Source of the DNA: Candidatus Cloacimonadota bacterium
Lineage (GTDB): Bacteria > Cloacimonadota > Cloacimonadia > Cloacimonadales > WRIO01
Length of the DNA: 12,736 bases
Reading direction: 5' to 3'
NCBI GenBank assembly: GCA_023230175.1
Contig: JALNXV010000065.1
Span: 1-12,736, forward strand
The notes under the pieces were generated by a model, which worked only from the letters and a program-made list of their open reading frames with translations, ran no database searches and was not told the origin of the DNA. Below are positions 342 through 12,736 of this stretch, piece by piece. Both the position numbers and the translations under genes were made by a program. The stretch's first letter is position 1, and every line of letters begins with the position of its first letter.

Positions 342-383
342 ATTTTTAGTTGCATGATAATTGTTGTAGTGAATGGAGGAAAA

Positions 384-1856
384 ATGGCGAAGATTGATGA
401 AAAAATATTATGGGCTTCAGCAGACAAATTAAGAGGGAGTGTTAGTGCATCTGATTATATGTACGTTGTATTAGGATTAATTTTTTTAAAATACATTTCT
501 GATCGCTTTGAAGACAAATATAATTATTTAGTAACAGAGGGTGAAGGATTTGAGAATGATAAAGATGAATATACATCTGAACACATTTTTTGGGTGCCAG
601 AAAAATCAAGATGGAATTATATATCACAATTTTCAAAACAAGAAGAACTTGGACAAAAACTTGATGAGGCATTTATTGAAATAGAAAAAGAAAATGATGA
701 ATTAAATGGAATTTTACCTAAAATATATTCTTCTTCAGCAATTGATAAAAGAAGACTTGGCGAACTTATAGATTTATTCAGCAATCAGCTTGAGACATCT
801 GTTGAAGGCGATTTCATGGGGCAGATTTACGAATATTTTATGGGGAAATTTGCCAGAAACTTAGGACAAACAGGTGGAGAATTTTATACTCCAAGATGCA
901 TCGTTCAACTATTGGTTAGAATGATAGAACCTATGGGTGGTAGAGTATATGATCCTTGCTGTGGAAGTGGCGGTATGTTTGTACAAGCTGCTGATTTTGT
1001 TAAAGCACATAGAGGCAATGTAGATAAGATTTCTGTTTACGGACAAGAATTAAATACAACAACTTGGAAACTTGCTAAAATGAACTTATCTATTCGAGGA
1101 ATTGATGCTAATCTAGGAGAGTCACCGGGAGATACTTTTCATGATGATAAACATAAATCTCAAAGATTTGATTATATATTAGCGAATCCTCCTTTTAATA
1201 TTAGTGATTATGGACAACCATCATTGTTAGAAGATCCAAGATGGGTATATGATATTCCACCTGCTGGAAATGCAAACTACGCATGGATTCAACATATGTA
1301 TTCAAAATTAGCTCCAAAAGGAATAGCCGGGTTTGTTTTAGCTAATGGATCACTATCTACCACATCTAAACAAGAATATAACATTAGAAAACTTATGCTT
1401 GAAGATGGTATAGTTGATTGTGTCATTACTTTACCAGATAAGTTGTTTTATACAACAGGAATACCAGTATCTCTCTGGTTTATTAGAAAAAGTAAAACTA
1501 CTAATGAAGTTTTATTTATTGATGCTCGAAATTTAGGAGAAATGATAGATAGAAAAGTAAGAGAACTAAAAGAAGAAGACCTAGTTAAAATTACGGATAC
1601 ATATCATAATTGGTTAAAGGATAAAAACTATGAAGATGTTAAAGGTTTCTGTAAAAAAGCATCTTTAGATGAAATAAGAGAAGCTGACTATACACTAGTT
1701 CCGGGAAGATATGTAGGAATTGATGATTCTGATAAAATGAGTGAAGAAGAAATTGATGCTGAAATTAAAAAATTATCTTCTGAACTATTAGACTTATTTG
1801 AAAAGAATAGGGAACTAGAGAACAAAGTTGAGGAAATACTTAAATCTAATATGTAG
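384..1856 (+). CDS. hsdM: Type I restriction-modification DNA methyltransferase subunit HsdM
   Basis: HsdM is the N6-adenine methyltransferase subunit. With HsdS it forms the M2S methylase that protects host sites, and it is part of the R2M2S restriction complex. From ATG 384 it is 490 aa, normal for the family. The N-terminal helical HsdM_N region (about 1-130) is followed by the N6_Mtase fold. The SAM-binding motif DPCCGSGGM begins near residue 190 and the catalytic NPPF is at about 268-271. An acidic, helical, Lys/Glu-rich tail would contact HsdS. ATG 384 is chosen because GGAGGA lies at 375-380 and the protein then starts MAKIDEK; the in-frame ATG at 354 has no ribosome site. The 3' end overlaps by 11 bp, convergently, the tail of the silent hsdS half-gene. 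The gene lies outside both predicted inverting segments, so methylase expression should not depend on hsdS orientation. Confidence 0.96.
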   Translation: MAKIDEKILWASADKLRGSVSASDYMYVVLGLIFLKYISDRFEDKYNYLVTEGEGFENDKDEYTSEHIFWVPEKSRWNYISQFSKQEELGQKLDEAFIEIEKENDELNGILPKIYSSSAIDKRRLGELIDLFSNQLETSVEGDFMGQIYEYFMGKFARNLGQTGGEFYTPRCIVQLLVRMIEPMGGRVYDPCCGSGGMFVQAADFVKAHRGNVDKISVYGQELNTTTWKLAKMNLSIRGIDANLGESPGDTFHDDKHKSQRFDYILANPPFNISDYGQPSLLEDPRWVYDIPPAGNANYAWIQHMYSKLAPKGIAGFVLANGSLSTTSKQEYNIRKLMLEDGIVDCVITLPDKLFYTTGIPVSLWFIRKSKTTNEVLFIDARNLGEMIDRKVRELKEEDLVKITDTYHNWLKDKNYEDVKGFCKKASLDEIREADYTLVPGRYVGIDDSDKMSEEEIDAEIKKLSSELLDLFEKNRELENKVEEILKSNM

Positions 1857-2295
1857 TTCTTACAATGTCAACTATGTGTTGTTGCTCTGTATGGGTCACA
1901 TTATGTATTGGATAATTTAAAAGCACACTTTTTTCACCTCTAGGCATTTTCGTTCCTTTAGCTGATTTTACGAACACATTTATGAAATTGTCAGTTACTA
2001 AATTATAATATATATACTTTGCATTATGTCCTTCTCTTGCTCTCAGGCAAATAATATCACTCGAGCACCCTCCATAAATTGAAGACAACCATATTTTTTT
2101 GAAATACGGTCTTATATTTGAAATTAAAATATCATTTGGCTCAACTTTAGTAATACTGCCAGCAGGGATGCTGTTTGCTTGTTTTATACCACCAAAATTT
2201 GAAATCATATTCTCTGTTGTAACATACTTATTTATATCAACACTATTTGATTTTATTTTTTCATTTACAATGTAACAGCATTCATTTATATTCAT
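1846..2295 (-). CDS. hsdS: Silent 5' half of hsdS (alternative TRD1), inverted cassette
   Basis: This 149-aa frame on the minus strand encodes one HsdS target recognition domain. Visible TRD features are the segment VEPNDILISNIRPYF, the following I(Y)GGCSSDIICLRA strand region, and MPRGEKSVLLNYPI before the conserved linker EQQHIVD. The linker is where HsdS proteins pass into their central helices, but here it ends after six more residues (IVRTTY, then stop), so there is no second TRD. It has its own ATG (2293-2295) and an AAAGG ribosome site about 7 nt upstream. The codons around site A (1866-1884) match those in the expressed hsdS and keep frame. An inversion between sites A and B would therefore fuse this half to the complete 3' half downstream. 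In the present orientation it faces hsdM and is probably silent or makes only a truncated half-subunit. Confidence 0.88.
   Translation of the reverse strand: MNINECCYIVNEKIKSNSVDINKYVTTENMISNFGGIKQANSIPAGSITKVEPNDILISNIRPYFKKIWLSSIYGGCSSDIICLRAREGHNAKYIYYNLVTDNFINVFVKSAKGTKMPRGEKSVLLNYPIHNVTHTEQQHIVDIVRTTY
1866..1884 (-). repeat. Recombination site A (inverted copy of the left part of site B)
   Basis: Read on the minus strand this is caacaacacatagttgaca, identical over 19 bp to 2785-2803 on the plus strand and in opposite orientation. It ends in the shared hexamer TTGACA (1866-1871). Beyond the core the sequence departs from site B (TTGTAAGAAC instead of CTATAGGAAG). It lies inside the QQHIVD codons, 9 bp after the hsdM stop. 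Recombination with B would invert about 938 bp and exchange the two hsdS 5' halves. Confidence 0.85.
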
Positions 2296-2325
2296 ATAAA
2301 AACCTTTCTAGGAGACAAACATTTT

Positions 2326-3471
2326 ATGAAATTAGAAGAAATAATAAAAATATATAGACCTAATACAACATCAAGAGTTGATTTATCAATTGAAGGAATT
2401 AAATGTATTCATTATGGAGATATTTATAAAAATTATAGTAATAAAAGCATTACCAGTTCAAGTATTATTAATAGTTTTACGAAAACTATAAAATCGGAAA
2501 AAATCATAAATTCTGATTCAATAATTTTTCCTGATGTAACAGAAACTGTAGAGGATTTTGGACATTTTGTCTATGTGCAATTTGATAATGTTAATTATAT
2601 CAATGGAACACATACATTTGCATTAACAACGACCGAATGCAATTTGAAATATTTATTTTATTATCTCCAATCAGTTTCGACAAAGGCAAAACTGAGACAA
2701 CTATTAAAAGGAGATACTGTTTTCCAATTATCTGCCAAAGACTTTTTAAAATTAGATATTTCAAATTTTCATACTATTAATTTTCAACAACACATAGTTG
2801 ACACTATAGGAAGTATCGATGATTTAATAGAAAACCTAAATACCATCAATTGTAAAATTAATGATCTAATTCAAATTATATTTCGTAAACACACCCATCA
2901 CCTTAATACAACTCGTATTGGTAATTTGAAGGGATATTCAATTATTAAATCAGGTATAAAAACTTTTAGCGGAACAAAAGTTTATTTAAACACAGCTTCA
3001 GTTAACGAGAATGGAATATCTTCAAATGATTATATTATAACGATGAAAGATAAACCTTCAAGAGCGAATATGCAACCCATTCCAAATTCCGTTTGGTTTG
3101 CCAAATTAAAAGATAGTCCTAAATTCTTATATGTTAGAGATTTTATGGAATATATCCTAAATAATTACATTTTTTCTACAGGGTTTATGGGATTAGTTTG
3201 TGACAATTCATATGTCTCTAACTACATGTATTCGCTAATAACAAGTAAGCAATTTGATGAAAACAAAAATGCTCTATCCATTGGCGCAACTATGCAAGGA
3301 ATCAATAATGATTCATTCAAGGAAATTCAAGTTCCTAATGTAAATATAAATTTAATGACTACAATAGGTAAAGAAGCTGAGTCAAAAATAAAATTTATAT
3401 ATTATAATAAGAAGAAAATTGAAAGATTGACTCTATTGAAAAAAAATTACTTAAAAAAGTTCTTTGGATAA
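2326..3471 (+). CDS. hsdS: Expressed Type I specificity subunit HsdS (phase-variable)
   Basis: HsdS reads the bipartite target sequence through two TRDs held apart by conserved helices and scaffolds HsdM and HsdR. The 381 aa divide into TRD1 (about 1-150), a central conserved segment (QQHIVDTIGSIDDLIENLN, from residue 154) that carries recombination site B, TRD2 (about 190-340), and a C-terminal Lys-rich helix ending LLKKNYLKKFFG. The length is typical of a complete HsdS. GGAG at 2311-2314 precedes ATG 2326. No promoter is evident in the 30-bp gap to the head-to-head silent half-gene, so transcription probably reads through from hsdM across about 470 bp that is antisense to the silent cassette. 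Its stop codon sits in the loop of a strong terminator. Both halves have a silent counterpart in the window, so the present version is one of four predicted. Confidence 0.93.
   Translation: MKLEEIIKIYRPNTTSRVDLSIEGIKCIHYGDIYKNYSNKSITSSSIINSFTKTIKSEKIINSDSIIFPDVTETVEDFGHFVYVQFDNVNYINGTHTFALTTTECNLKYLFYYLQSVSTKAKLRQLLKGDTVFQLSAKDFLKLDISNFHTINFQQHIVDTIGSIDDLIENLNTINCKINDLIQIIFRKHTHHLNTTRIGNLKGYSIIKSGIKTFSGTKVYLNTASVNENGISSNDYIITMKDKPSRANMQPIPNSVWFAKLKDSPKFLYVRDFMEYILNNYIFSTGFMGLVCDNSYVSNYMYSLITSKQFDENKNALSIGATMQGINNDSFKEIQVPNVNINLMTTIGKEAESKIKFIYYNKKKIERLTLLKKNYLKKFFG
2785..2823 (+). repeat. Composite recombination site B within expressed hsdS
   Basis: Two partly overlapping repeats meet here. 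Bases 2785-2803 are the inverted partner of site A (19/19). Bases 2798-2823, ttgacactataggaagtat plus one variable base plus gatgat, are the inverted partner of site C (25/26). The overlap is TTGACA (2798-2803), flanked by ATAG (2794-2797) and CTAT (2804-2807), an inverted pair around a 6-bp centre as expected for a tyrosine-recombinase core. All junctions are in frame (IVD|T codons). Confidence 0.85.
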
Positions 3472-3492
3472 TGCACTCCAAAGAACTTTTTT
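3453..3492 (+). terminator. Strong hairpin terminator of expressed hsdS
   Basis: A perfect 16-bp stem pairs 3453-3468 (aaaaaagttctttgga) with 3477-3492 (tccaaagaactttttt). The loop contains the hsdS stop codon (TAA 3469-3471). The A-run and T-run make it workable on both strands. It overlaps the codons for the conserved C-terminal KKFFG, so the terminator travels with this hsdS 3' half. It should limit read-through into the recombinase gene that starts 37 bp later. Confidence 0.85.
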
Positions 3493-3498
3493 GCTATT

Positions 3499-3530
3499 AT
3501 ATATAAATATCTCAGGAGGTATTTATATAT
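3499..3530 (+). promoter_or_regulatory. AT-only inverted repeat enclosing the recombinase ribosome site
   Basis: An exact 11-bp inverted repeat, atatataaata (3499-3509) and tatttatatat (3520-3530), flanks tctcaggagg. In mRNA the strong AGGAGG site (3514-3519) would be in the loop, while the first two bases of the start codon (3529-3530) lie in the stem. The stem contains only A-U pairs and would be weak. It may tune translation or sensitivity to temperature, or simply reflect AT-rich sequence; the repeat itself is certain, the role is inferred. Confidence 0.5.
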
Positions 3531-4332
3531 GATAGAGGAATTTAAAGAATGGTTAAAAATGCAAAACTTATCAATGAATACAATAGATTCATATGTTTTT
3601 TCAGTAAATCAGTTTCTTTCGTTTTACAAAAAAATAACAAAAGATTACATTTCTGCATATAAAGGTTATTTAATAGAAAATTATAAAGGGAAAACAGTAA
3701 ACTTAAGAATCCAAGGGTTAAATAAATATCTTGACTTTATTGAGAAAAGTTCATTGAAAACGAGGTTTATAAAAATCCAACAAAAATCAGTATTAGAAAA
3801 TGTTATCAGTAATGCAGATTATCACTTTTTATATATTCAATTGAAAAAAGATAATAATAATGATTGGTATTTTGTGGTGAGATTTTTGGGAGCTACAGGA
3901 TGCCGAGTGAGTGAACTTATTGAAATTAAAGCAGAACATGTTATTTTGGGACATATCGATATTTATTCAAAGGGCGGGAAGATTAGAAGGTTGTATATTC
4001 CTAAGACCTTACAACAAGAAGCATTGCAGTGGTTAAAATGTAAAAATAAAATGACTGGATATATTTTTTGTAATAGAAGCGGTTTAAAACTTACAACAAG
4101 AGGCATAGCTCATCAATTAAAAAAACTAGCAAAAGATTATGGCGTGAATACCAATGTTGTATACCCCCACTCATTTAGGCATAGATTTGCAAAAAATTTC
4201 ATTGAAAAATGCAACGATATTGCTTTACTTGCTGACCTTATGGGCCATAATTCTATAGAAACAACAAGAATATATCTAAGAAGAACATATGAAGAGCAAA
4301 GAGAAATAATTGATAAAGTTATTACTTGGTAA
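3529..4332 (+). CDS. Tyrosine recombinase, probable hsdS invertase
   Basis: The 267-aa protein is a phage-integrase-family recombinase of the small XerC/D-like type. It has an N-terminal SAM-like core-binding domain (about 1-85) and a C-terminal catalytic domain. All catalytic residues are visible: R126 in GATGCRVSEL, K148 in SKGGKIRR, H214-x-x-R217 in HSFRHRF, H240 in LMGHNS and nucleophile Y249 in RIYLRR. Such enzymes cleave at a Holliday-junction core of 6-8 bp, matching the shared TTGACA. Recombinases of this family invert hsdS genes in other phase-variable Type I loci (for example the pneumococcal ivr locus). Position between the expressed hsdS and a silent half-hsdS strongly suggests the same job here. 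Start ATG 3529 has AGGAGG 9 nt upstream. The gene lies inside the predicted B-C inverting segment and would flip with it. Confidence 0.93.
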   Translation: MIEEFKEWLKMQNLSMNTIDSYVFSVNQFLSFYKKITKDYISAYKGYLIENYKGKTVNLRIQGLNKYLDFIEKSSLKTRFIKIQQKSVLENVISNADYHFLYIQLKKDNNNDWYFVVRFLGATGCRVSELIEIKAEHVILGHIDIYSKGGKIRRLYIPKTLQQEALQWLKCKNKMTGYIFCNRSGLKLTTRGIAHQLKKLAKDYGVNTNVVYPHSFRHRFAKNFIEKCNDIALLADLMGHNSIETTRIYLRRTYEEQREIIDKVITW

Positions 4333-4360
4333 AAAAAGTTCTTTAACTAAAGAACTTTTT
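4333..4360 (+). terminator. Bidirectional terminator between recombinase and silent 3' hsdS half
   Basis: A perfect 12-bp stem pairs 4333-4344 (aaaaagttcttt) with 4349-4360 (aaagaacttttt) around AACT. It directly follows the recombinase stop (TAA 4330-4332) and contains the stop end of the minus-strand half-hsdS, with A/T runs on both sides. The stem sequence is nearly that of the 3453-3492 terminator because both derive from the codons for the conserved HsdS C-terminus KKFF. Either hsdS 3' half thus brings its own terminator. Confidence 0.8.
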
Positions 4361-4990
4361 AAGAAGATACTTTTTACACAATGATAAATGCTTGATTTTT
4401 AATACGTTATTAATCATTAATTCATAAATATAGTTTAATTCATTATTAACACTAATATTGATAATTTCATCAATTTGTAAATAATTTAATGATTTTGAAG
4501 CATGTAAAATCGTGGTTCCAAATGAGTGTTCATTTATGCATTGTTGTATTTGATCTGATATTGACCAAAAGAATATATACCCTTTGCTAATACACATTTT
4601 TCTACATTCAATTTTTCTGAGACTACCCGAAAAGCACCCTTCAATAGTATATCCCACTCTGCCTGGTGCTCCATCAAATGAAATTAATATATCCCCAATT
4701 CTCGATTCTGCTTGTTTTAAATATGAAGTGTCTACATAAACTTGGGATGATAATGAATTCATGTCTCCGACTCTATAGTATGCTACGTTTCCGCTAGATT
4801 TAGTTGTTTGATATACTTTTGAACCTGTCTCAATCCCTTTTATAAATTTTAATTTTTTTGTTGCCAAAATTGTATCGTTTGTTTTATTTTTTTGATACAC
4901 AAGCTTACCCAAACTAATTAATTTTTCATTTATTAAATTTAAATTTTCAATGTTATCATCAATACTTCCTATAGTGTCAATAATGTGATG
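4343..4990 (-). CDS. hsdS: Silent 3' half of hsdS (alternative TRD2), inverted cassette without start
   Basis: On the minus strand the frame begins within the conserved central segment (HHIIDTIGSIDDNIENLN, from about 4990), continues through a complete TRD and ends LCKKYLLKKFFS, parallel to the C-terminus of the expressed HsdS. Typical TRD pieces are VAYYRVGDMNSL, ESRIGDILISFDGAPGRVGY and the SFGTTILHASKSLNYLQIDEI region. The first in-frame ATG is only at 4912 (MGKLVYQK), after the conserved linker, and has no clear ribosome site. I therefore read this as a promoterless and startless donor cassette, not an independent gene. Inversion between B and C would join it in frame to either 5' half. 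The open frame runs on upstream toward 5068, but that part is the hsdR promoter region and unrelated to HsdS. Confidence 0.87.
   Translation of the reverse strand, partial: HHIIDTIGSIDDNIENLNLINEKLISLGKLVYQKNKTNDTILATKKLKFIKGIETGSKVYQTTKSSGNVAYYRVGDMNSLSSQVYVDTSYLKQAESRIGDILISFDGAPGRVGYTIEGCFSGSLRKIECRKMCISKGYIFFWSISDQIQQCINEHSFGTTILHASKSLNYLQIDEIINISVNNELNYIYELMINNVLKIKHLSLCKKYLLKKFFS
4955..4980 (-). repeat. Recombination site C (inverted copy of the right part of site B)
   Basis: On the minus strand it reads ttgacactataggaagtat, then t, then gatgat. It matches 2798-2823 at 25 of 26 positions; the only difference is at 2817/4961, a synonymous ATC/ATT. The core TTGACA is at 4975-4980. Outside it the sequence differs from B (left arm TTA instead of TAG) although CATCACAT still resembles CAACACAT. 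B-C recombination would invert about 2.18 kb including the recombinase gene. Confidence 0.85.
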
Positions 4991-5015
4991 TTTTATAAAA
5001 GTTTTAAAATATAGG

Positions 5016-5043
5016 TTAAAATTGTTTAATAATATGGTATAAT
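5016..5043 (+). promoter_or_regulatory. Candidate promoter of hsdR
   Basis: TGGTATAAT (5035-5043) is a good extended -10, preceded at 16 bp by TTAAAA (5016-5021), a 4/6 match to the -35 consensus. Transcription would start near 5050, about 20 nt before the hsdR start. It lies just beyond site C, outside the inverting DNA, so hsdR transcription should be the same in all four configurations. Confidence 0.6.
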
Positions 5044-5070
5044 TTATAAAAAAGGATATGGGGAATTTTT

Positions 5071-8000
5071 ATGTTTTATGAAAGTGATGTAGAAAAAGCA
5101 GTCATTGAATCGCTAATAAGTATAGGGTATTCTTATATTGGTGATAATAATAGATGGATTCAAGAACGGAAACTATCTGACTTTATTAATGAGGAAGTGT
5201 TGTTTGAACAACTAAAGAAGATTAATAAAGGGATAAAAGGGAGAATTTTAGAAGAAGCAATATTTGTAATTAAGCGATATGATCATCCCTCACTATTTGA
5301 AAGAAACAAAGTATTTCATCAATTTTTTGTTGATGGAATAACCATTGAAGATCATAAAAGTGAAGTAAATCCTTTGGTTAGGCTTGTTGACTTTGATAAT
5401 ATTAAGAACAATATATTTGAAGTAGGTAACCAAATAAAGTTCAAAGAATTTTCCAATCGAAGCGTTAGAATACCAGATGTCATTTTATTTGTAAATGGGA
5501 TTCCGTTAGTCGTTATGGAATTAAAATCCTTTGAAAACATTAATGGGACTTTACTAGAAGATGCATTTAATCAACTTGGTGGTAATTCTGAAAGCGATGG
5601 GTATCGTTATGATATTCCAACATTATTTAATTTCAATGCTTTCAATGTGATTAGTGATGGTGCAAATTCAAAAGTTGGTGTTTTAACTTCAAAATTTGAC
5701 CGATATAACGAATGGAAAAGTATCAATGGAGAACTCGGGTTTAAAGACAGTTATTCTTTCAAACTGGATGTATTGGTGGAAGGATTACTCAAGCAAGAGA
5801 AACTTTTAGATGTGATTAGGAATAACATCTTCTTCATCAACAAAGATAAAAATAAGAACATTAAAATAATGGCACAATATCATCAGTATTTTGGTGTAAT
5901 CAAATCTATGGATAGAATCAAATATGCTTTAAGACCAGAAGGAAATGGTAAAGCTGGTATTTTGTGGCATACACAAGGCAGTGGTAAAAGTTTTTCAATG
6001 GTGATGCTTGCACATCGTATTATCACAAGTCAAGAATTTTCTAATCCTACAATAGTTATATTAACAGATCGAAATGATTTAGACGATCAATTGTTCAATA
6101 CATTTTCAAGTGCAAGTAATTATCTTAGATGCACACCAATAAAAGTAACTTCAAGAGGGGACTTACTTAATAAACTAAAAATCACAAAACAAGGTGGAGT
6201 GATTTTTTCAACGATCCAAAAATTTGATAAAGACAACATTCAGGTAAATGAACGCTCAAATATCATTGTAATGGCTGATGAAGCACATCGGGGTCATTAT
6301 GGATTATATGAGAAAGTTAGTTATCAAGAAAACGAAGAAACAAAAGAACTTGAAATGGTTGTTTCATATGGGACAGAAAAGTATATTAGAGAATCACTTC
6401 CTAATGCTACATTTATTGGTTTTACTGGTACACCAGTAACGACACTTGATAAGTCAACGACCGATATTTATGGAGATATTATTGATACATATGATATGAC
6501 ACAATCAGTGAATGACGGTGCAACAGTTAGAATTTTTTATGAAGGACGACTTGCAAGGGTTTGGACTGATGATACGTTGCTTCAAAAAATAGATGAAAAC
6601 TATGAAGATCTAGAAAATAAAGGTGTAAATGAACAGGTTATCGAAGAGTCAAAACGCAGGATGAGCAGTATCAAAGTAATACTTGAAGATGAAGATTTGA
6701 TTCATTTGCTTGCGAAAGATATTATTGATCATTATGAACTTCGAAAGCAATTCTTAAATGGAAAAGCGATGATAGTTATGCCAACAAGAAAAGCAGCAGC
6801 TATCTTATATAAGGCAATGCTATCATTAAAACCTAATTATCAAGATAAGTTGATTGTTATAGTAACTGAAAGTAATAAAGATGATGAAGATACAAGAAGA
6901 TTATTTCAGAATTCTCAATATCGAGATAATATGGCAAGGGACTTTAAGTCAGAAAATAGTAATGCTAAAATTGCTATTGTTGTTGATATGTGGCTTACAG
7001 GTTTTGATGTTCCAGATTTAGATGTCATGTATTTATTTAAGAAAATGAAAGGGCATAGTTTAATGCAAGCAATTGCTAGAGTCAATAGAGTTTTTCCTGG
7101 TAAAGAGTCCGGATTAATTGTTGATTATATTGGTTTAGCAAAACCACTAGAAGAGGCATTAGATAAGTATACTGCAAGAGACAAAGAATTAAATCTAAAA
7201 GATATCAAAGAAGTTGCTGTAACTATTCTGAAAGAAAAATTATCCATTTTAAATGAATGGTTCTACAAGATTGATACCAAAAAATTCAATTCTGATTCTG
7301 CAAAAGAAAGATTCCGTGTCATCCAAGAAGGTTCTGCTTTTGTTTTAGAGAACGAAAGTCGTAAAAAAGATTTCTTGAAACTGTCGCTTGACTTAAAACA
7401 CGCATACATTATTTGTGCTGGTATGTTAAAAAAAGAAGAACATGGAATAGTTCAATATTATTTATCAGTACGAAGTTATATTATAAAGCTTGATATTGGA
7501 GTGGGTCCAATGGGTGTTGGAGAGATAAATGATCAAGTTGCAGCTTTAGTTGCTGATGCAATTAGAGGTGATGAAGTGAAAGTACTGACAAAGATAGGAA
7601 CAAAAGATCAGAATGCTTTAATTGATTTATTAAGACCTGAAAAAATCGAAGAAATAAAACAATCTAATCCTCCTCATATATTTTTAAAAATCATAGAAAA
7701 TCTTTTAAAACAAGTTATTGCTGAAAGTAGAAGAACCAATTTGATCAAAGCTCAACAATACAGCGAGAAACTTAGAAAAATTTTAGAAAAATATAATAGT
7801 AGAGCATTGGATTTTGATACAACAGATACCATCATTAAGATAATCGATTTCGCTCAAGAGGTTGTGTCAGATGAAGATGAAGCCACATCAAAAGGACTCA
7901 CAGGAAGAGAACGTGCATTTTATGACTCTTTGGCAAACAACAAAAGTGCATATGAACTGCTAACTGATGAAACACTTAAATGTATTGCGCATGAATTACG

Positions 8001-8166
8001 AGAGATTGTTGAAGAATATGCAACTACCGATTGGTCAAAGAAAAAGTCAACTCAAGCAAAAATGAGAAAAGAAATAAAAAGGTTACTAAAAAAGTATAAT
8101 TATCCACCTGAGTATACCGAGGATGCTATTCAAACTGTAATAAAACAAGCGGAATTTATGATGTAA
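5071..8166 (+). CDS. hsdR: Type I restriction endonuclease/translocase subunit HsdR
   Basis: HsdR is the motor and nuclease subunit. It binds the M2S core, translocates DNA using ATP when sites are unmethylated, and cuts at a distance. At 1031 aa it is full length. The N-terminal PD-(D/E)xK nuclease is visible as P135-D136 and E150-L-K152 (IPDVILF ... VVMELKS). The two RecA-like helicase domains follow: Walker A GSGKS at 303-307 (HTQGSGKSFSM), DEAH at 403-406, GFTGTP just after residue 450, and the arginine-finger motif QAIARVNRVFPG near 670. The C-terminal third is helical and would bind HsdM/HsdS. GGGGAA about 6-7 nt before ATG 5071 supports the start. No decay is seen in the catalytic motifs, so the system looks restriction-competent. 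It follows the silent half-hsdS on the opposite strand and has its own promoter. Confidence 0.97.
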   Translation: MFYESDVEKAVIESLISIGYSYIGDNNRWIQERKLSDFINEEVLFEQLKKINKGIKGRILEEAIFVIKRYDHPSLFERNKVFHQFFVDGITIEDHKSEVNPLVRLVDFDNIKNNIFEVGNQIKFKEFSNRSVRIPDVILFVNGIPLVVMELKSFENINGTLLEDAFNQLGGNSESDGYRYDIPTLFNFNAFNVISDGANSKVGVLTSKFDRYNEWKSINGELGFKDSYSFKLDVLVEGLLKQEKLLDVIRNNIFFINKDKNKNIKIMAQYHQYFGVIKSMDRIKYALRPEGNGKAGILWHTQGSGKSFSMVMLAHRIITSQEFSNPTIVILTDRNDLDDQLFNTFSSASNYLRCTPIKVTSRGDLLNKLKITKQGGVIFSTIQKFDKDNIQVNERSNIIVMADEAHRGHYGLYEKVSYQENEETKELEMVVSYGTEKYIRESLPNATFIGFTGTPVTTLDKSTTDIYGDIIDTYDMTQSVNDGATVRIFYEGRLARVWTDDTLLQKIDENYEDLENKGVNEQVIEESKRRMSSIKVILEDEDLIHLLAKDIIDHYELRKQFLNGKAMIVMPTRKAAAILYKAMLSLKPNYQDKLIVIVTESNKDDEDTRRLFQNSQYRDNMARDFKSENSNAKIAIVVDMWLTGFDVPDLDVMYLFKKMKGHSLMQAIARVNRVFPGKESGLIVDYIGLAKPLEEALDKYTARDKELNLKDIKEVAVTILKEKLSILNEWFYKIDTKKFNSDSAKERFRVIQEGSAFVLENESRKKDFLKLSLDLKHAYIICAGMLKKEEHGIVQYYLSVRSYIIKLDIGVGPMGVGEINDQVAALVADAIRGDEVKVLTKIGTKDQNALIDLLRPEKIEEIKQSNPPHIFLKIIENLLKQVIAESRRTNLIKAQQYSEKLRKILEKYNSRALDFDTTDTIIKIIDFAQEVVSDEDEATSKGLTGRERAFYDSLANNKSAYELLTDETLKCIAHELREIVEEYATTDWSKKKSTQAKMRKEIKRLLKKYNYPPEYTEDAIQTVIKQAEFMM

Positions 8167-8185
8167 ATCACAAAGGTTTCTAAGT

Positions 8186-8214
8186 TTTACATAATTATTA
8201 GTTACATATATAAC
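8186..8214 (+). promoter_or_regulatory. Candidate promoter with overlapping palindrome before ATPase/TOPRIM pair
   Basis: TTTACA (8186-8191), a 17-bp spacer and TATAAC (8209-8214) give 5/6 and 5/6 matches to the consensus. An imperfect palindrome, AGTTA-catata-TAACT (8200-8215), covers the -10 and could be an operator. A further 6-bp inverted repeat (GATGAT 8281-8286 / ATCATC 8294-8299) lies just before the ribosome site AGGAG (8304-8308). No clear terminator follows hsdR, so read-through from hsdR is also possible. Confidence 0.5.
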
Positions 8215-8313
8215 TATAAAGAAAAAAAGGTGTGGAGTAGAAAGAAAGCAATTGTACAATAGTTAACAAATGAGTTTAAAGATGATTGATAGTATCATCA
8301 GATAGGAGAAAAA

Positions 8314-9615
8314 ATGAAGAGTATATTTGTAAAAGGATTGTTTGGAAAATTTGATTATAATATTATTTTTAAAGAAGACAGATTGACAATTTTGACAGGG
8401 CCTAATGGTTATGGAAAATCTACTATCCTACGCATTATTAACAATTTATCAAAAGGAGTTCAAGGTTTCATTCAATTAATGTCTACTAACTTTTCAAGCA
8501 TTAAACTTTGTTTTGACGATAAAACTTATGAGATTACTAGAACAAATGATAGATTCGAAATCAATGGTAAAGATATAAAAAAGAGTATTCAAAAAATCGC
8601 TGAAGATTTAATCGGAAGTGGATTATACAGAGATATAGATGATGAAATTAGGTACTATAGAAATTATGATAGTTATTTTAAATCATATAATTATATTCAA
8701 CTTCTTTCATCCAAGTTAGAAGATTTATCTTTGGAAGATGTGAAGCTTCTTAATTACGGAGAAAGAATACTATCGAAAAATAAAGATGTATATGGATTAA
8801 TAACTGAGATAAAAGAAAAAATCGGAGAAATACATTTTATTAAAGAACAAAGATTAATTCAACCTCAAAAGAAAACTGAAAAAAATAGAGTTAAAAGAGA
8901 GATAGTTGAGGTAATAACAGAAATACCTGTCAAACTAAGGGGAAAGATATTGGATGTTGCTGCATCTTATTCGCAGATTTCTACTCAGTTAGATAGTTCT
9001 TATCCTTCAAGACTGCTCAGGAATCAAACAACCATTACGGAAGAAGAATTTATTTTAAAGAACGAGGAAACAAAAACGAAATATAATAAATTAAGAGAAT
9101 ACGATTTGACACCAGAACAACCTATAGATGAGATGAATTATAAAGAAGAATTTTCAAAAGCTCTAAGTGTTTATTTTGATGATTTTAAAAACAAGTATAG
9201 TGTGTTTGAACCATTAGTTAATCAATTGGATATATATACAGACATCATTAATAATCGATTAAGTTTTAAAAAAATACAAATCAAAAAGGATATTGGGTTA
9301 TCAGTAGTAAATGATAAGGGAGAAAACATTGAACTATCTCAACTTTCTTCAGGTGAGCAACAAGAAATTGTTTTGTTTTATGAACTTATTTTTGAAGCGA
9401 GCAAAGGTTGCTTGTTATTAATTGACGAGCCTGAGATTTCTTTGCATATAGCCTGGCAAAGAATGTTTATTCATGATCTAATAAAAGTATCAGACTATAA
9501 GAAGTTTCACATTATTATTGCTACACATTCGCCTCAGATTATTGATAATCGATGGGATAACCAGATTGATTTAGGAGAACTTTTTGATGAATTCAATAAT
9601 ATCAAACCTAAATAA
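8314..9615 (+). CDS. ariA: ABC/AAA_15-type ATPase, AriA-like (PARIS system)
   Basis: The 433-aa protein has a split ABC/SMC-like ATPase head. Walker A GPNGYGKST is at 29-37, an insertion of about 250 residues with charged helical stretches follows, then the ABC signature LSSGEQQ (344-350), Walker B LLLIDEPE (D371, E372) and the switch histidine in ATHSPQ (H405). This organisation fits AAA_15/OLD-like ATPases. The partner encoded next is a separate TOPRIM protein rather than a fused domain, which points to AriA of PARIS more than to OLD or Gabija GajA. AriA is known to assemble into a complex that holds AriB inactive until a phage anti-restriction protein (T7 Ocr for one) is sensed. AGGAG 5 nt before ATG 8314 supports the start. 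The gene overlaps the next by 29 bp, indicating translational coupling. Assignment to PARIS is inferred from motifs and neighbourhood. Confidence 0.72.
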   Translation: MKSIFVKGLFGKFDYNIIFKEDRLTILTGPNGYGKSTILRIINNLSKGVQGFIQLMSTNFSSIKLCFDDKTYEITRTNDRFEINGKDIKKSIQKIAEDLIGSGLYRDIDDEIRYYRNYDSYFKSYNYIQLLSSKLEDLSLEDVKLLNYGERILSKNKDVYGLITEIKEKIGEIHFIKEQRLIQPQKKTEKNRVKREIVEVITEIPVKLRGKILDVAASYSQISTQLDSSYPSRLLRNQTTITEEEFILKNEETKTKYNKLREYDLTPEQPIDEMNYKEEFSKALSVYFDDFKNKYSVFEPLVNQLDIYTDIINNRLSFKKIQIKKDIGLSVVNDKGENIELSQLSSGEQQEIVLFYELIFEASKGCLLLIDEPEISLHIAWQRMFIHDLIKVSDYKKFHIIIATHSPQIIDNRWDNQIDLGELFDEFNNIKPK

Positions 9616-10345
9616 GAATGACACAATAGCATCTTTAAAAATGAATTTGCATCACCCATCATCATTAGGACTCCATATTGTTGTTGAAGGAACATCAGAT
9701 ATTATATTTTTGTCTTCACTCCTAGATAACATATTCATCTATGAATCTCATAGTGGTAAAGAAGGTGTTTTCGAAATACTTGAAATCGTATATTCAACAA
9801 AAGTAATTGGGATATGCGATAGAGATTTTGACTTGCGCACAAATAGTAGAATTTTTTATTATGATGGAATATCACTTGAGACAATGATGATTATGAATGA
9901 TGAAGCTTTTAATAAAGTGCTAAATCAGTTCTTTGTTTATGAAGAGGAAAAAAAGAATTTTAAACAAGAAGTGTTTTCATGTGCAACACCGATTTCAATA
10001 CTAAGAAAAAAAAGTTATGAAAATGAATGGCATATTAAATTTGATGTCATTAAACCTTCTCATTACATTAAAAATAAAAAATGTGACATTAATTCTTTGA
10101 TGGAAAAGTGTTCACTTGTTAATAGCAATTTTGACTTTAGCTGCTTAAATATTGAAGAAATCCAACCAGAGACATATCCGATTGAATTACTACACGGTCA
10201 TGATTTAGTAAGTATAATAGCATTTTTAATTAAAAACAAACCAAAAACAATTGAGCAAATGTTAAGAATAGCATATACAAAAGAACATTTTTTTAGTACG
10301 CATATTTATAAAAGCATCAGTGACTATGAAATAAGTCAAAAGTAG
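9587..10345 (+). CDS. ariB: TOPRIM/DUF4435-like effector, AriB-like (PARIS system)
   Basis: The protein is 252 aa from ATG 9587, preferred because AGGAG lies 9 nt upstream; a TTG directly before it is also open. Metal-binding TOPRIM signatures are present: the acidic residue E34 in HIVVEGTSD and the second motif CDRDFD (D78, D80, D82), separated by GKEGVFEI. This arrangement matches DUF4435, the AriB family. AriB, released from AriA after triggering, is known to act as a toxic nuclease directed at host tRNA, so the pair works by abortive infection. The C-terminal part (about 110-252) is helical and carries no motif I recognise. The start lies inside the 3' end of the ATPase gene, so the two are almost certainly one operon. 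A free-standing OLD-family or other TOPRIM nuclease is the main alternative. Confidence 0.7.
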   Translation: MNSIISNLNKNDTIASLKMNLHHPSSLGLHIVVEGTSDIIFLSSLLDNIFIYESHSGKEGVFEILEIVYSTKVIGICDRDFDLRTNSRIFYYDGISLETMMIMNDEAFNKVLNQFFVYEEEKKNFKQEVFSCATPISILRKKSYENEWHIKFDVIKPSHYIKNKKCDINSLMEKCSLVNSNFDFSCLNIEEIQPETYPIELLHGHDLVSIIAFLIKNKPKTIEQMLRIAYTKEHFFSTHIYKSISDYEISQK

Positions 10346-10378
10346 AAGTAGTTTAACAAAAAAAGGAATGTAGCATTT

Positions 10379-11042
10379 ATGAAAATATTAATTGAAAACG
10401 GAGTATTGATAATGTACAACAAAAAATTTAAAGAAATTTGCACAAGTTATTATGGTTCTTGTAATACTGATTTGCCATGCGAGGACGAATTTATCTGTAT
10501 AATTGACATGGAAAATGAATCATTTTTAGAGGGTTATGATATTATTCAAACAGATGAGGCAGGGAAAAAAAGAAATCAGACCATAAAAGATAAAATATTG
10601 AACTATGAATGTAAAGTGATTGCTTTGGTTTTGGAATCTCCGCATACAAGCGAATACAATCAGTGTACACCTTTAGGCCCTGGACTAGGTAAAACTGGTA
10701 AAAATATCCATGATCACATCATAGAAATATTAAAGAATTCAAATTTACAATTAGTTGCTTAAATATAAAATAATATAAGTCGAAGCAGTAAGTTATCAAT
10801 GCTCGAATGGGAAAAGTTTAATAGATAAATCAATAAGAGACGATACATTTAAAAAAGTTTTGGTTTCATTTGGAGAGAATGATTTTAAGTGTAGAATGAA
10901 AGACTATAATCCTGATATTATAATTAATTCTTGTACTGGTGGGTTATAAAAAATCCATAGTAATGATTCATTGAATGGATTAGTTCAATCAGCAATTGAA
11001 AAACTAGATTATGTAAATGTTGCTACTCCCTCCTCACTCTAG
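10379..11042 (+). pseudogene. Decayed gene of an uncharacterised family (one frameshift, two internal stops)
   Basis: The open part gives up to 127 aa (10379-10762); the better start may be ATG 10412 (MYNKKF), with GGAG 8 nt upstream. The visible conserved-looking segment is CKVIALVLESPH...GPGLGKTGKNI. Reading then breaks at T10760. Skipping that base restores a protein-like frame: KYKII, stop (TAA 10776-10778), VEAVSYQCSNGKSLID, further on DYNPDIIINSCTGGL, stop (TAA 10947-10949), then SAIEKLDYVNVATPSSL to TAG 11040. The high coding quality of the restored frame shows that this was one gene of about 220 aa. Blocks such as YQCSNGKS and NPDIIINSCTGG resemble a widespread conserved hypothetical family from memory, with no known function that I can state. 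It lies behind the AriAB-like pair and beside the IS element, so it may be a former defence-island member. Confidence 0.7.
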
Positions 11043-11059
11043 TTCAACATGGTTTTGGC

Positions 11060-11127
11060 GCAAAAAAATGATTTGACTATATTTATTGAATTTTCATAGT
11101 CTAATTTTTCTTGAATAAATCATTTTT
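11060..11127. repeat. Imperfect long inverted repeat before the IS21 transposase
   Basis: AAAAATGATTT (about 11063-11073) recurs inverted as AAATCATTTTT (11117-11127), and GACTAT (11074-11079) recurs inverted as ATAGTC (11096-11101). A stem with a bulge can form. It may be part of the complex left end of the IS21-like element, which usually carries several transposase-binding repeats, or a remnant terminator. The exact IS terminus is not resolved; TG dinucleotides near 11050-11057 are possible first bases. Confidence 0.4.
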
Positions 11128-11172
11128 GTTTTTGATTAAATCGAATTATAAAAAATGTAACTGAAAAAGAAT

Positions 11173-11200
11173 AGCGGTAGAACTTTCTATCGCTTTTTTT
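11173..11200 (+). terminator. Rho-independent terminator upstream of istA
   Basis: A 9-bp stem (11173-11181 with 11186-11194, one G-U pair) around ACTT is followed by a T-run to 11200. It stands about 70 bp before istA. It would stop transcription arriving from the defence genes, a common way for insertion sequences to avoid being driven by outside promoters. Confidence 0.75.
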
Positions 11201-11272
11201 GGGAGGTGGTTAAATTGATTGTCATATGAAATCTAAAATTTATCAAGATGAGAAAGGAGGAAGTAAATCAAG

Positions 11273-12733
11273 ATGAATTTAGAACAATTTAAAAAGATGA
11301 AAGAATTAAAAGCTTTAGGCCTTTCTAGAGTAAAGACCGCTAGTACTCTAGAATTGAAAGAATGGGAGATTAGAAAGTACTGGAACATGACTGAAGATGA
11401 GTTTAGAGGATTACAACAAGAAGCCATTCCAACATTCGATAAGTACAAGGATTTTGTAGTAAACATCTTAAAAGTGACTCCAATGATTCCAGATAGGAAT
11501 GTTATGTTTAAACTGAAAGAAGCATTTCCTGATTTTGATATTTCAACTTCTGCGTTCTATCGTTACATAAAAAGTTTGCGGGAAGAACATGGATTTGATA
11601 AGTTTAAAAAGCGAAATACAGTATTAAGACAAAACCCAGAACCAGGTGAAGAAGCACAAGTAGATTTTGGTCAAGATAAGATTATTGACATGTATGGAAT
11701 CAATAGACGCATCTATTTCTTTGTGATGGTATTAAAGTACAGTAAGTTAATGTATGTTTACTTTAGTAGCGAACCGTTTACTACTGTTAAGTCCATTGAA
11801 GCACACAAATATGCATTCCGGTTTTTTGGTGGGTATCCGAAAAACATTGTTTATGATCAAGATAGGGTGTTTGTTGTTCATGAAAACTTTGGAAACATTA
11901 TTCTTGTGAAAGAGTTTGAAGATTATGTAAAAGATGTGGGATTTTCAGTCGTTGTTTGTAGTGGATATCATCCGGAAAGCAAAGGGACGGTTGAAAACTA
12001 TGTGAAAATTGTTAAAAGTGAGTTTTTACTCGGAAGGGTGTATACTTGTATTGATTGTTTGAACTCAAGTTGCCTAGAGTGGTTAGATCATCGATCTAGT
12101 GATGTCGTTCATTCTAGTACTGGTAAAACAGCACGAGAACTATTCATGAAAGAAGCCAATCACTTAACAAAGATAGCCTACAACTTAAACTATAGTAGAT
12201 TTATCTATACGGTGGATAAAAATGTCATCAAGTATCAATATTCTATGTATGAGATTCCACTCGGGTTTGAAGGAGATAAGGTATTAGTAGAAGTAGAAAA
12301 TGATGAGTTGCTTGTAAAGAATCCAATCACCAAAGATGTAATATGCAAACACACCATTACAAACGCACGAGGAAGTGTCGTAAAACTAAAAGAAACAAAA
12401 ACCAATCCAAGTGTCGGTGAGGTGATTGTGTTAAACCACTTTAATCATGACGCGTTAGTCATGAAGTATTTAAGTGAGATAAGAGAAAAACATCCGAGGT
12501 ATTATAGTAAATCTTGTAACAAGCTCCAAACCCTAATCAAACAATACTCCAAAGAACAACTAAAAGATGCAATGGAATATTGTCTTAGTGTAGGTGATGT
12601 GATGTTATCCGAACTTGCTTCTTATCTCATTTACAAGTATGGAGAAGAAATTGCGAGTCGTTGTCATTACAAATCCCTCTTTGAGTATTACAAGAAAAGA
12701 GCGAAGGAAATCGAGGTGTTGCTGAATGGTTAA
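11273..12733 (+). CDS. istA: IS21-family transposase IstA (DDE recombinase)
   Basis: IstA cuts and joins the IS ends in cooperation with the ATPase IstB. The 486-aa protein has an N-terminal helix-turn-helix region (about 1-60, GLSRVKTASTLELKEWEIRKYW), a second DNA-binding part, then the RNase H-like core with D131 (AQVDFGQ), D195 (IVYDQDRVF) and E241 (YHPESKGTVENYVK). The C-terminal region contains the basic, beta-rich part and a helical tail. Length and motif order are normal for IstA, so it looks active. AAAGGAGG (11253-11260) lies 12 nt before ATG 11273, slightly far but the only good candidate. The stop overlaps the start of the next gene. Confidence 0.93.
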   Translation: MNLEQFKKMKELKALGLSRVKTASTLELKEWEIRKYWNMTEDEFRGLQQEAIPTFDKYKDFVVNILKVTPMIPDRNVMFKLKEAFPDFDISTSAFYRYIKSLREEHGFDKFKKRNTVLRQNPEPGEEAQVDFGQDKIIDMYGINRRIYFFVMVLKYSKLMYVYFSSEPFTTVKSIEAHKYAFRFFGGYPKNIVYDQDRVFVVHENFGNIILVKEFEDYVKDVGFSVVVCSGYHPESKGTVENYVKIVKSEFLLGRVYTCIDCLNSSCLEWLDHRSSDVVHSSTGKTARELFMKEANHLTKIAYNLNYSRFIYTVDKNVIKYQYSMYEIPLGFEGDKVLVEVENDELLVKNPITKDVICKHTITNARGSVVKLKETKTNPSVGEVIVLNHFNHDALVMKYLSEIREKHPRYYSKSCNKLQTLIKQYSKEQLKDAMEYCLSVGDVMLSELASYLIYKYGEEIASRCHYKSLFEYYKKRAKEIEVLLNG

Positions 12734-12736
12734 TCA
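12726..12736 (+). CDS. istB: Start of istB (IS21 helper ATPase), truncated by window edge
   Basis: ATG 12726 opens a frame MVN that overlaps the istA stop by 8 bp and has GAGGTG about 9 nt upstream. Only three codons are visible, so the assignment rests on position: in IS21 elements istB follows and overlaps istA. IstB is an AAA+ ATPase that selects targets and stimulates IstA. Confidence 0.5.

Follow-up and report, generated by a model that had tools for sequence, protein, structure and literature searches.

Comparison with described invertible hsdS systems

In the pneumococcal cod/ivr (SpnIII) locus, two further hsdS genes are described as connected with the expressed one by three different repeat pairs, IR1, IR2 and IR3 (PMC4948785, PMC7096588). 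We compared this and further switches with a Type I restriction-modification (R-M) locus in a 12,736-nt stretch of DNA from a Candidatus Cloacimonadota bacterium (contig JALNXV010000065.1, 29.6% G+C), the whole of which is called the window below. The locus holds, in order, hsdM, an inverted silent half of hsdS with a first target recognition domain (TRD1b), a complete hsdS (TRD1a and TRD2a), a tyrosine recombinase gene, an inverted silent half with a second domain (TRD2b) and hsdR, together with three short sites, A, B and C, that share one core. The best explanation of this arrangement, with a probability of about 0.87, is a three-site, four-state switch run by the recombinase of the locus. 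An earlier note, made from the letters alone, had proposed two independent inversions at such a gene; its description of a complete hsdS between an inverted silent TRD1 half on the left and an inverted silent TRD2 half on the right agrees with both the gene calls and the profile matches.

As described in its source texts, the pneumococcal locus resembles that of the window in its Type I R-M genes, in the PsrA-type recombinase encoded within it and in the short repeat that exchanges TRD2 (IR1, 15 bp, comparable to B–C here). In contrast, the window uses one core in three copies and keeps its TRD1 spare on the other side, beside hsdM; with TRD1b upstream, between hsdM and hsdS, the layout is unlike the one-sided pneumococcal type, as the note had stated. 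The hsd locus of Listeria monocytogenes likewise gives four variants via two inversions and has an integrase between opposed hsdS genes; however, its description gives two repeat pairs that do not resemble each other, one of 16 bp at the 5′ end and one of 29 bp in the centre, and a second opposed hsdS (PMC4783014), whereas no 5′ repeat pair is seen in the window and each TRD1 cassette has its own start. The Streptococcus suis switch works like that of the window, which differs by the single core in three copies and the upstream TRD1 spare.

Several hsdS genes with a psrA or integrase gene in the locus are also described for M. hominis and M. agalactiae (PMC11096450, PMC9465063). The hsd2 locus of M. 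hominis, reported to have four hsdS genes that form inverted repeats with psrA between them (PMC11096450), may have the same layout as the window. The hsd loci of M. pulmonis are described with two hsdS genes each and a recombinase gene elsewhere (PMC2824730), whereas the recombinase gene of the window lies in the locus (3529–4332). The consulted portions of these three texts, figures excluded, describe no half cassettes on both sides of one central site. The order hsdM, inverted TRD1 half or halves, hsdS, recombinase, inverted TRD2 half or halves, hsdR is shared by records of Mycoplasmopsis arginini NCTC10129 (NZ_LR215046, NZ_LR215045) and M. bovirhinis NCTC10118 (NZ_LR214973); silent halves are more numerous in them than in the window and there are additional S genes, and their annotation is gene by gene, with no switch described in the tables.

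None of the consulted texts, PMC11062135 and PMC5903667 among them, describes a single site flanked by half cassettes on either side; figures and most subscription papers lay outside the search, so absence from print is not established. The view of the note that the layout is under-described thus stands in part: no consulted text describes a three-site half-cassette switch, but the layout occurs at 11 distinct loci among those fetched, including the annotated Mycoplasmopsis records. The locus is a real, recurrent variant of known invertible hsdS switches, and its novelty is moderate. A 2020 REBASE survey set a minimum of 20 bp for its exact repeats (PMC7394358), and such a rule would pass over 19-bp sites such as those of A–B and B–C.

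Recombination sites and predicted states

Site A (1866–1884, minus strand) consists of a left arm and the core TTGACA and lies directly after the stop codon of hsdM (1854–1856). Site B (2785–2816, plus strand) has a left arm, the core and a right arm, lies in the middle of hsdS and is the partner of both A and C. Site C (4962–4980, minus strand) consists of the core TTGACA and a right arm. A is an exact inverted match to B over 19 bp (2785–2803), and so is C (2798–2816 of B); the three sites share no longer run than TTGACA. In B, this core is flanked by CATAG on one side and CTATAG on the other, a small palindrome that would be of the sort expected at a tyrosine-recombinase core. Two exact inverted repeats of at least 19 bp with arms more than 100 bp apart occur in the window, as against none in 300 first-order Markov simulations, and each 19-mer is present only at its two sites even when up to three mismatches are allowed (chance expectation 0.01). 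A chance origin of the repeats is ruled out by these two figures. At a threshold of 14 bp, the exact inverted repeats of the window are A–B, B–C and one hairpin after hsdS. Over 32 positions, A and C are identical at 23 (longest run 6), and A–B and B–C, in that order, at 27 and 28. A and C are in direct orientation, and recombination between them would therefore delete hsdS and the recombinase gene.

In the present phase, hsdS (2326–3471, plus strand; Pfam Methylase_S 2.5e-5) encodes 381 residues. The silent 5′ half, TRD1b (1846–2295, minus strand; PADLOC Specificity_I 9e-32), has its own ATG, and the stretch put to use by A–B inversion is 1873–2295. The silent 3′ half, TRD2b (4343–4981, minus strand; weak Specificity_I match, 1e-4), has no hsdS start of its own; its open reading frame (ORF) proper covers 4343–4912, and the frame stays open upstream through site C, from which it continues in frame. 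Inversion in silico gave intact products for every state, of 381 (1a2a), 365 (1b2a), 369 (1a2b) and 353 residues (1b2b), with the joints in frame. That A–B and B–C are inverted repeats in mid-gene with in-frame joints had been claimed beforehand, and this description was correct. The recombinase gene lies inside the B–C segment, where it is unbroken in all in-silico states and reversed by B–C inversion. Identity is 20% between TRD1a and TRD1b (27/133) and 24.5% between TRD2a and TRD2b (40/163); the members of each pair are therefore different recognition domains.

In the proposed mechanism, the PsrA-like recombinase encoded in the locus would reshuffle the DNA specificity, with site B serving two partners. 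Recombination of A with B would turn about 0.9 kb and swap TRD1, each TRD1 cassette supplying its own start codon. Recombination of B with C would turn about 2.2 kb and swap TRD2, reversing the recombinase gene along with it. The 2 × 2 combinations would give four HsdS proteins and, presumably, four methylation and restriction specificities, if each of the four is produced and recognizes a different target. The locus would then represent a minimal design for invertible Type I systems, in which three sites with a common core give 2 × 2 specificities and cassettes added on either side multiply them.

The AlphaFold2 model of the 381-residue HsdS (38 sequences) has a mean predicted local distance difference test score of 90.8 and a predicted template modelling score of 0.84. 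It shows two TRDs and two long helices, and the A/B/C joint, where the core encodes residues 158–159, lies near the start of the central helix (151–190). The ten best solved-structure matches to the model are Type I S subunits, S subunits of PacII/BsaXI systems or Type I complexes. The HsdS sequence had no match among PDB sequences at 1e-3; the kinship is visible by fold comparison. With hsdM, hsdS and hsdR all present and the S-subunit fold in the model, the locus belongs to the Type I R-M systems.

A–B inversion in a near-identical assembly

The 1b2a protein was predicted beforehand and is identical in 365 of 365 residues to a database protein, P0122, recorded at NCBI as 'MAG: restriction endonuclease subunit S [Candidatus Izemoplasmatales bacterium]', which joins TRD1b in frame to TRD2a. 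At the DNA level, contig C160 of assembly G992 (L176, reverse-complemented) equals the predicted A–B inverted sequence with one substitution in 3634 bases. Both hybrid junctions are exact, and the crossover is bounded by the common 19 bp. The window and this contig therefore represent the lineage in two of the four states, and the A–B inversion, a prediction from raw sequence, held when compared with another assembly. A fixed remnant was also considered for TRD1b and is ruled out by the inverted junctions of the contig.

B–C inversion in Mycoplasmopsis arginini

The B–C inversion is seen in a relative. Two records of M. arginini NCTC10129, L190 (NZ_LR215046.1) and L193 (NZ_LR215045.1), have the same layout as the window and identical hsdM flanks (2818 bp, 100%). 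Between them, the A–B segment is inverted (972 bp, 100%), and so is the B–C segment including the recombinase gene (2119 bp, 99.9%); both inversions end at the sites. One of the two records has an additional ~0.5 kb among its silent TRD2 halves. They were deposited as 'plasmid 3' and 'plasmid 2', but the presence of smpB and a folate-enzyme gene at the end of one points to a contig of the chromosome. The records may represent one hsd locus in two phases, or two copies. The claim that two inversions give four HsdS proteins is thus supported by the frames of the four states and, in this lineage, by the A–B product; its B–C part is observed between the M. arginini records only.

Alternative explanations

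Several observations weigh against a four-state switch in the lineage of the window. The A–B inversion counts as one observation, since P0122 and the contig of G992 are very probably the same contig; the longest contig of P0122 and C160 are both 5962 bp long. C160 stops inside the recombinase gene, at window position 4005, and near its end the recombinase frame is broken where a homopolymer differs in length by one base, possibly the result of a sequencing error, or else the sign of a stopped recombinase. A DNA search of the order of G992 matched 19 of 90 genomes, with the switch region matched over a long stretch in G992 only, and six hsdM relatives fetched from this order (L177–L182) are plain hsdM-hsdS-hsdR operons with no adjoining recombinase; therefore, the switch is not general in the order. 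For the B–C inverted state, no sequence of this lineage was found in the protein searches, in G992 or in the viral contigs. G992 has no match to window positions 4006–12736 except a short match of site C, and the viral contigs contain no predicted B–C junction. No TRD2b chimera close to this lineage is among the protein matches listed, at most 120 per search; an identical chimera would have ranked first where the best entry is P0122 (356 bits, 56% identity). These negatives, together with the left side of C, which differs from B, count for a locus in which the left half alone switches, TRD2b and site C are a decayed remnant and two specificities result. However, C retains 19 bp of exact identity to B including the core, TRD2b is open and joins in frame, and relatives as a rule lack the left arm at site C, M. 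arginini with its B–C inversion among them, so we regard the two-specificity locus as unlikely. The case that the earlier note had set against its own proposal, silent halves that are fixed remnants, is ruled out on the left side and improbable on the right.

A more sceptical reading takes the inverted form in G992 as an assembly artefact over a short repeat, with the halves fixed. The repeat has just 19 bp and the contig carries a protein named as coming from a metagenome-assembled genome, but the 0.9-kb segment is bordered by an exact hybrid on each side, the product is among the intact genes that had been predicted, and the same pattern occurs between records of a named strain; an artefact is hardly credible. 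A further reading is that general homologous recombination or a different recombinase makes the inversions, and that the recombinase of the locus does something else. A 2019 paper, by its title, reportedly finds spnIII recombination independent of all known pneumococcal site-specific recombinases (PMC6620402), which counts for this reading. After mutation of psrA, the IR2 and IR3 inversions persisted according to one pneumococcal text (PMC4948785) and became far fewer according to the other (PMC7096588), and M. pulmonis is described with its recombinase gene elsewhere in the genome (PMC2824730). Yet the 19-bp shared stretch resembles the 15-bp pneumococcal IR1, which according to the same pneumococcal texts needs PsrA (PMC4948785, PMC7096588), and the recombinase here is close to PsrA in sequence and located inside the switch. 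It lies inside the switch in 11 of 11 two-sided loci as well, which is weak support because the other ten were all found through recombinase searches. We consider inversion by another route quite improbable, and the recombinase of the locus is the probable inverting enzyme of the four-state switch.

The PsrA-like recombinase

The recombinase (3529–4332, plus strand, 267 residues; Pfam Phage_integrase 2.8e-24) is 59.8% identical over residues 2–267 to the product of a gene annotated psrA in a Streptococcus dysgalactiae record, and its best solved-structure relatives are Xer proteins. Arg126, His214, Arg217, His240 and Tyr249 are invariant in 13 aligned sequences, and we take these residues to be the tyrosine-recombinase catalytic motif. 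Among the 11 two-sided loci, the gene runs with hsdS in five and against it in five; in the remaining one, its direction differs between the two records of the strain. Two relatives, P0002 (430 residues) and P0003 (412 residues), show an internal repeat of the recombinase sequence, which is an assembly artefact or a partial duplication.

Sites and arms across loci

We compared the sites of the window with those of the other two-sided loci. In eight records from seven distinct loci, A consists of the left arm and the core, C of the core and the right arm, and B of all three; in L013, L019 and L110, only A was aligned. The exact-match overlap of A–B with B–C is 6 bp in the window and 6–16 bp in the others, except for L058, where a mismatch after the shared ATAGCGGGCG cuts it to 3 bp. 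The core is TTGACA in the window and L183, TTAACA in L109, L110, L184 and L190/L193, and ATAGCGGGCG in L058 and L122; by eye, it lies at the same spot of the central HsdS motif across loci. Over 32–33 positions, the A–C identity is below those of A–B and B–C in all eight records. A and the C2 site in L190/L193 share a 16-position run despite their lower overall identity. L058 has four copies of the core, two of them of type A, which predicts 3 × 2 specificities.

Each arm is coding sequence on the side that retains it, and coding constraint can thus account for the one-armed pattern by itself. One-armed A and C sites might also guard against the A–C deletion. A broader and rather doubtful proposal is that the two-sided layout forms a separate, long-lived class of hsdS switches with one central core and two one-armed partners. 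The arm pattern may then favour useful inversions over A–C recombination, and the orientation of the recombinase gene, possibly also its expression, would be set by the methylation state just chosen.

Distribution of the two-sided layout

A search of related genomes for the same gene order, which the earlier note had suggested, gave 11 distinct two-sided loci among those fetched. The genome scan with the recombinase took the best 80 of 486 relatives. Further, partly overlapping recombinase searches matched 6 of 161 genomes in the order of G002, 6 of 294 (a sample) in that of G001, 12 of 279 in that of G003 and 14 of 395 in a class sample. The layout of hsdM, hsdS parts, recombinase and hsdR was tabulated in 122 rows with a recombinase, of which 23 show the recombinase only; the counts reflect the yield of the recombinase searches rather than natural abundance. 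Some contigs stand in it twice (for example L079/L110, L045/L111 and L014/L112), and the strain of the window and M. arginini NCTC10129 have two rows each. The table omits the short loci L081–L108 and L129–L136, most of which were refetched longer, as well as L145, L146 and L147–L175; in L086, L087, L089, L095, L108 and L136 the recombinase is present, outside the counts.

An inverted hsdS half 5′ of a forward hsdS occurs in 14 of the 122 rows, corresponding to the 11 loci: the window and L176 (one strain), L013, L058, L109, L079/L110 (one contig), L122, L183, L184, L189, L190 and L193 (one strain) and L019. L185, with one inverted half in an otherwise different order, was excluded. A TRD2 half on the opposite side is seen in 10 of the 11, and L019 ends before this position; the half was missed by the profile in L110, where six-frame translation was used, and in L189, where it is an annotated hypothetical gene beside a site-B-like repeat. 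hsdM is not on the stretch in L109 and L110, and the forward hsdS frame of L184 is interrupted when read with code 4. L058 has two TRD1 spares and one TRD2 spare, and L109 has two of each. The commonest full-context rows are one-sided, with the orders hsdM-hsdS-recombinase-half-hsdS (14 rows) and hsdM-hsdS-half-recombinase-hsdS (11 rows). Ten loci were found in the viral contigs; none of the eight tabulated is two-sided, five show the recombinase only, and L145 and L146 (34% identity) were omitted. In L188, L119, L121 and L061, hsdS frames stand end to end on one strand beside a recombinase gene with a stop between them, and these are possibly tandem TRD cassettes.

The recombinase tree contains 65 of 67 named rows (all 11 two-sided and 54 of 56 one-sided), two having been dropped as identical or below the score cut; the other rows of the table are outside it. 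The two-sided label requires three changes on it, compared with a mean of 10.5 in shuffles (0 of 500 as low). One group of eight, weakly supported (77/84), comprises the window, L183, the mycoplasma-like rows and one one-sided row, L113; a group of four (98/94) comprises L019, L013, L058 and L122. The placement of the window is unsure because its own branch is long. A single origin of the layout is not shown by the tree with its three changes, nor is it rejected when the 11 rows are constrained together (approximately unbiased test, p = 0.252).

Other features of the window

hsdM (354–1856, plus strand) encodes the 500-residue methylase subunit (Pfam N6_Mtase 5e-107, HsdM_N 2e-24), and hsdR (5071–8166, plus strand) the 1031-residue restriction subunit (TIGR00348, 530.6 bits, cutoff 284.55). 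A terminator-like hairpin between hsdS and the recombinase gene (3452–3493, both strands) provides two of the three terminator-type sites listed in the region, where 0.7 are expected. A promoter scan was uninformative, with 36 found and a mean of 26.8 in shuffles.

Just 3′ of hsdR (8314–10345), an AAA ATPase gene (PADLOC AriA 4.4e-25, also PtuA-like) overlaps a gene for a DUF4435 protein (Pfam, 27.4 bits, cutoff 27), to which PADLOC gave no call. AriB is, we assume, linked to DUF4435, and on this basis the two genes would be a PARIS-like pair, which with the hsd operon would form a small defence island. Further downstream, a short ORF without a Pfam or PADLOC match (10379–10762) stands ahead of an IS21-type transposase gene (11273–12733; NF033546, 162.5 bits, cutoff 160).

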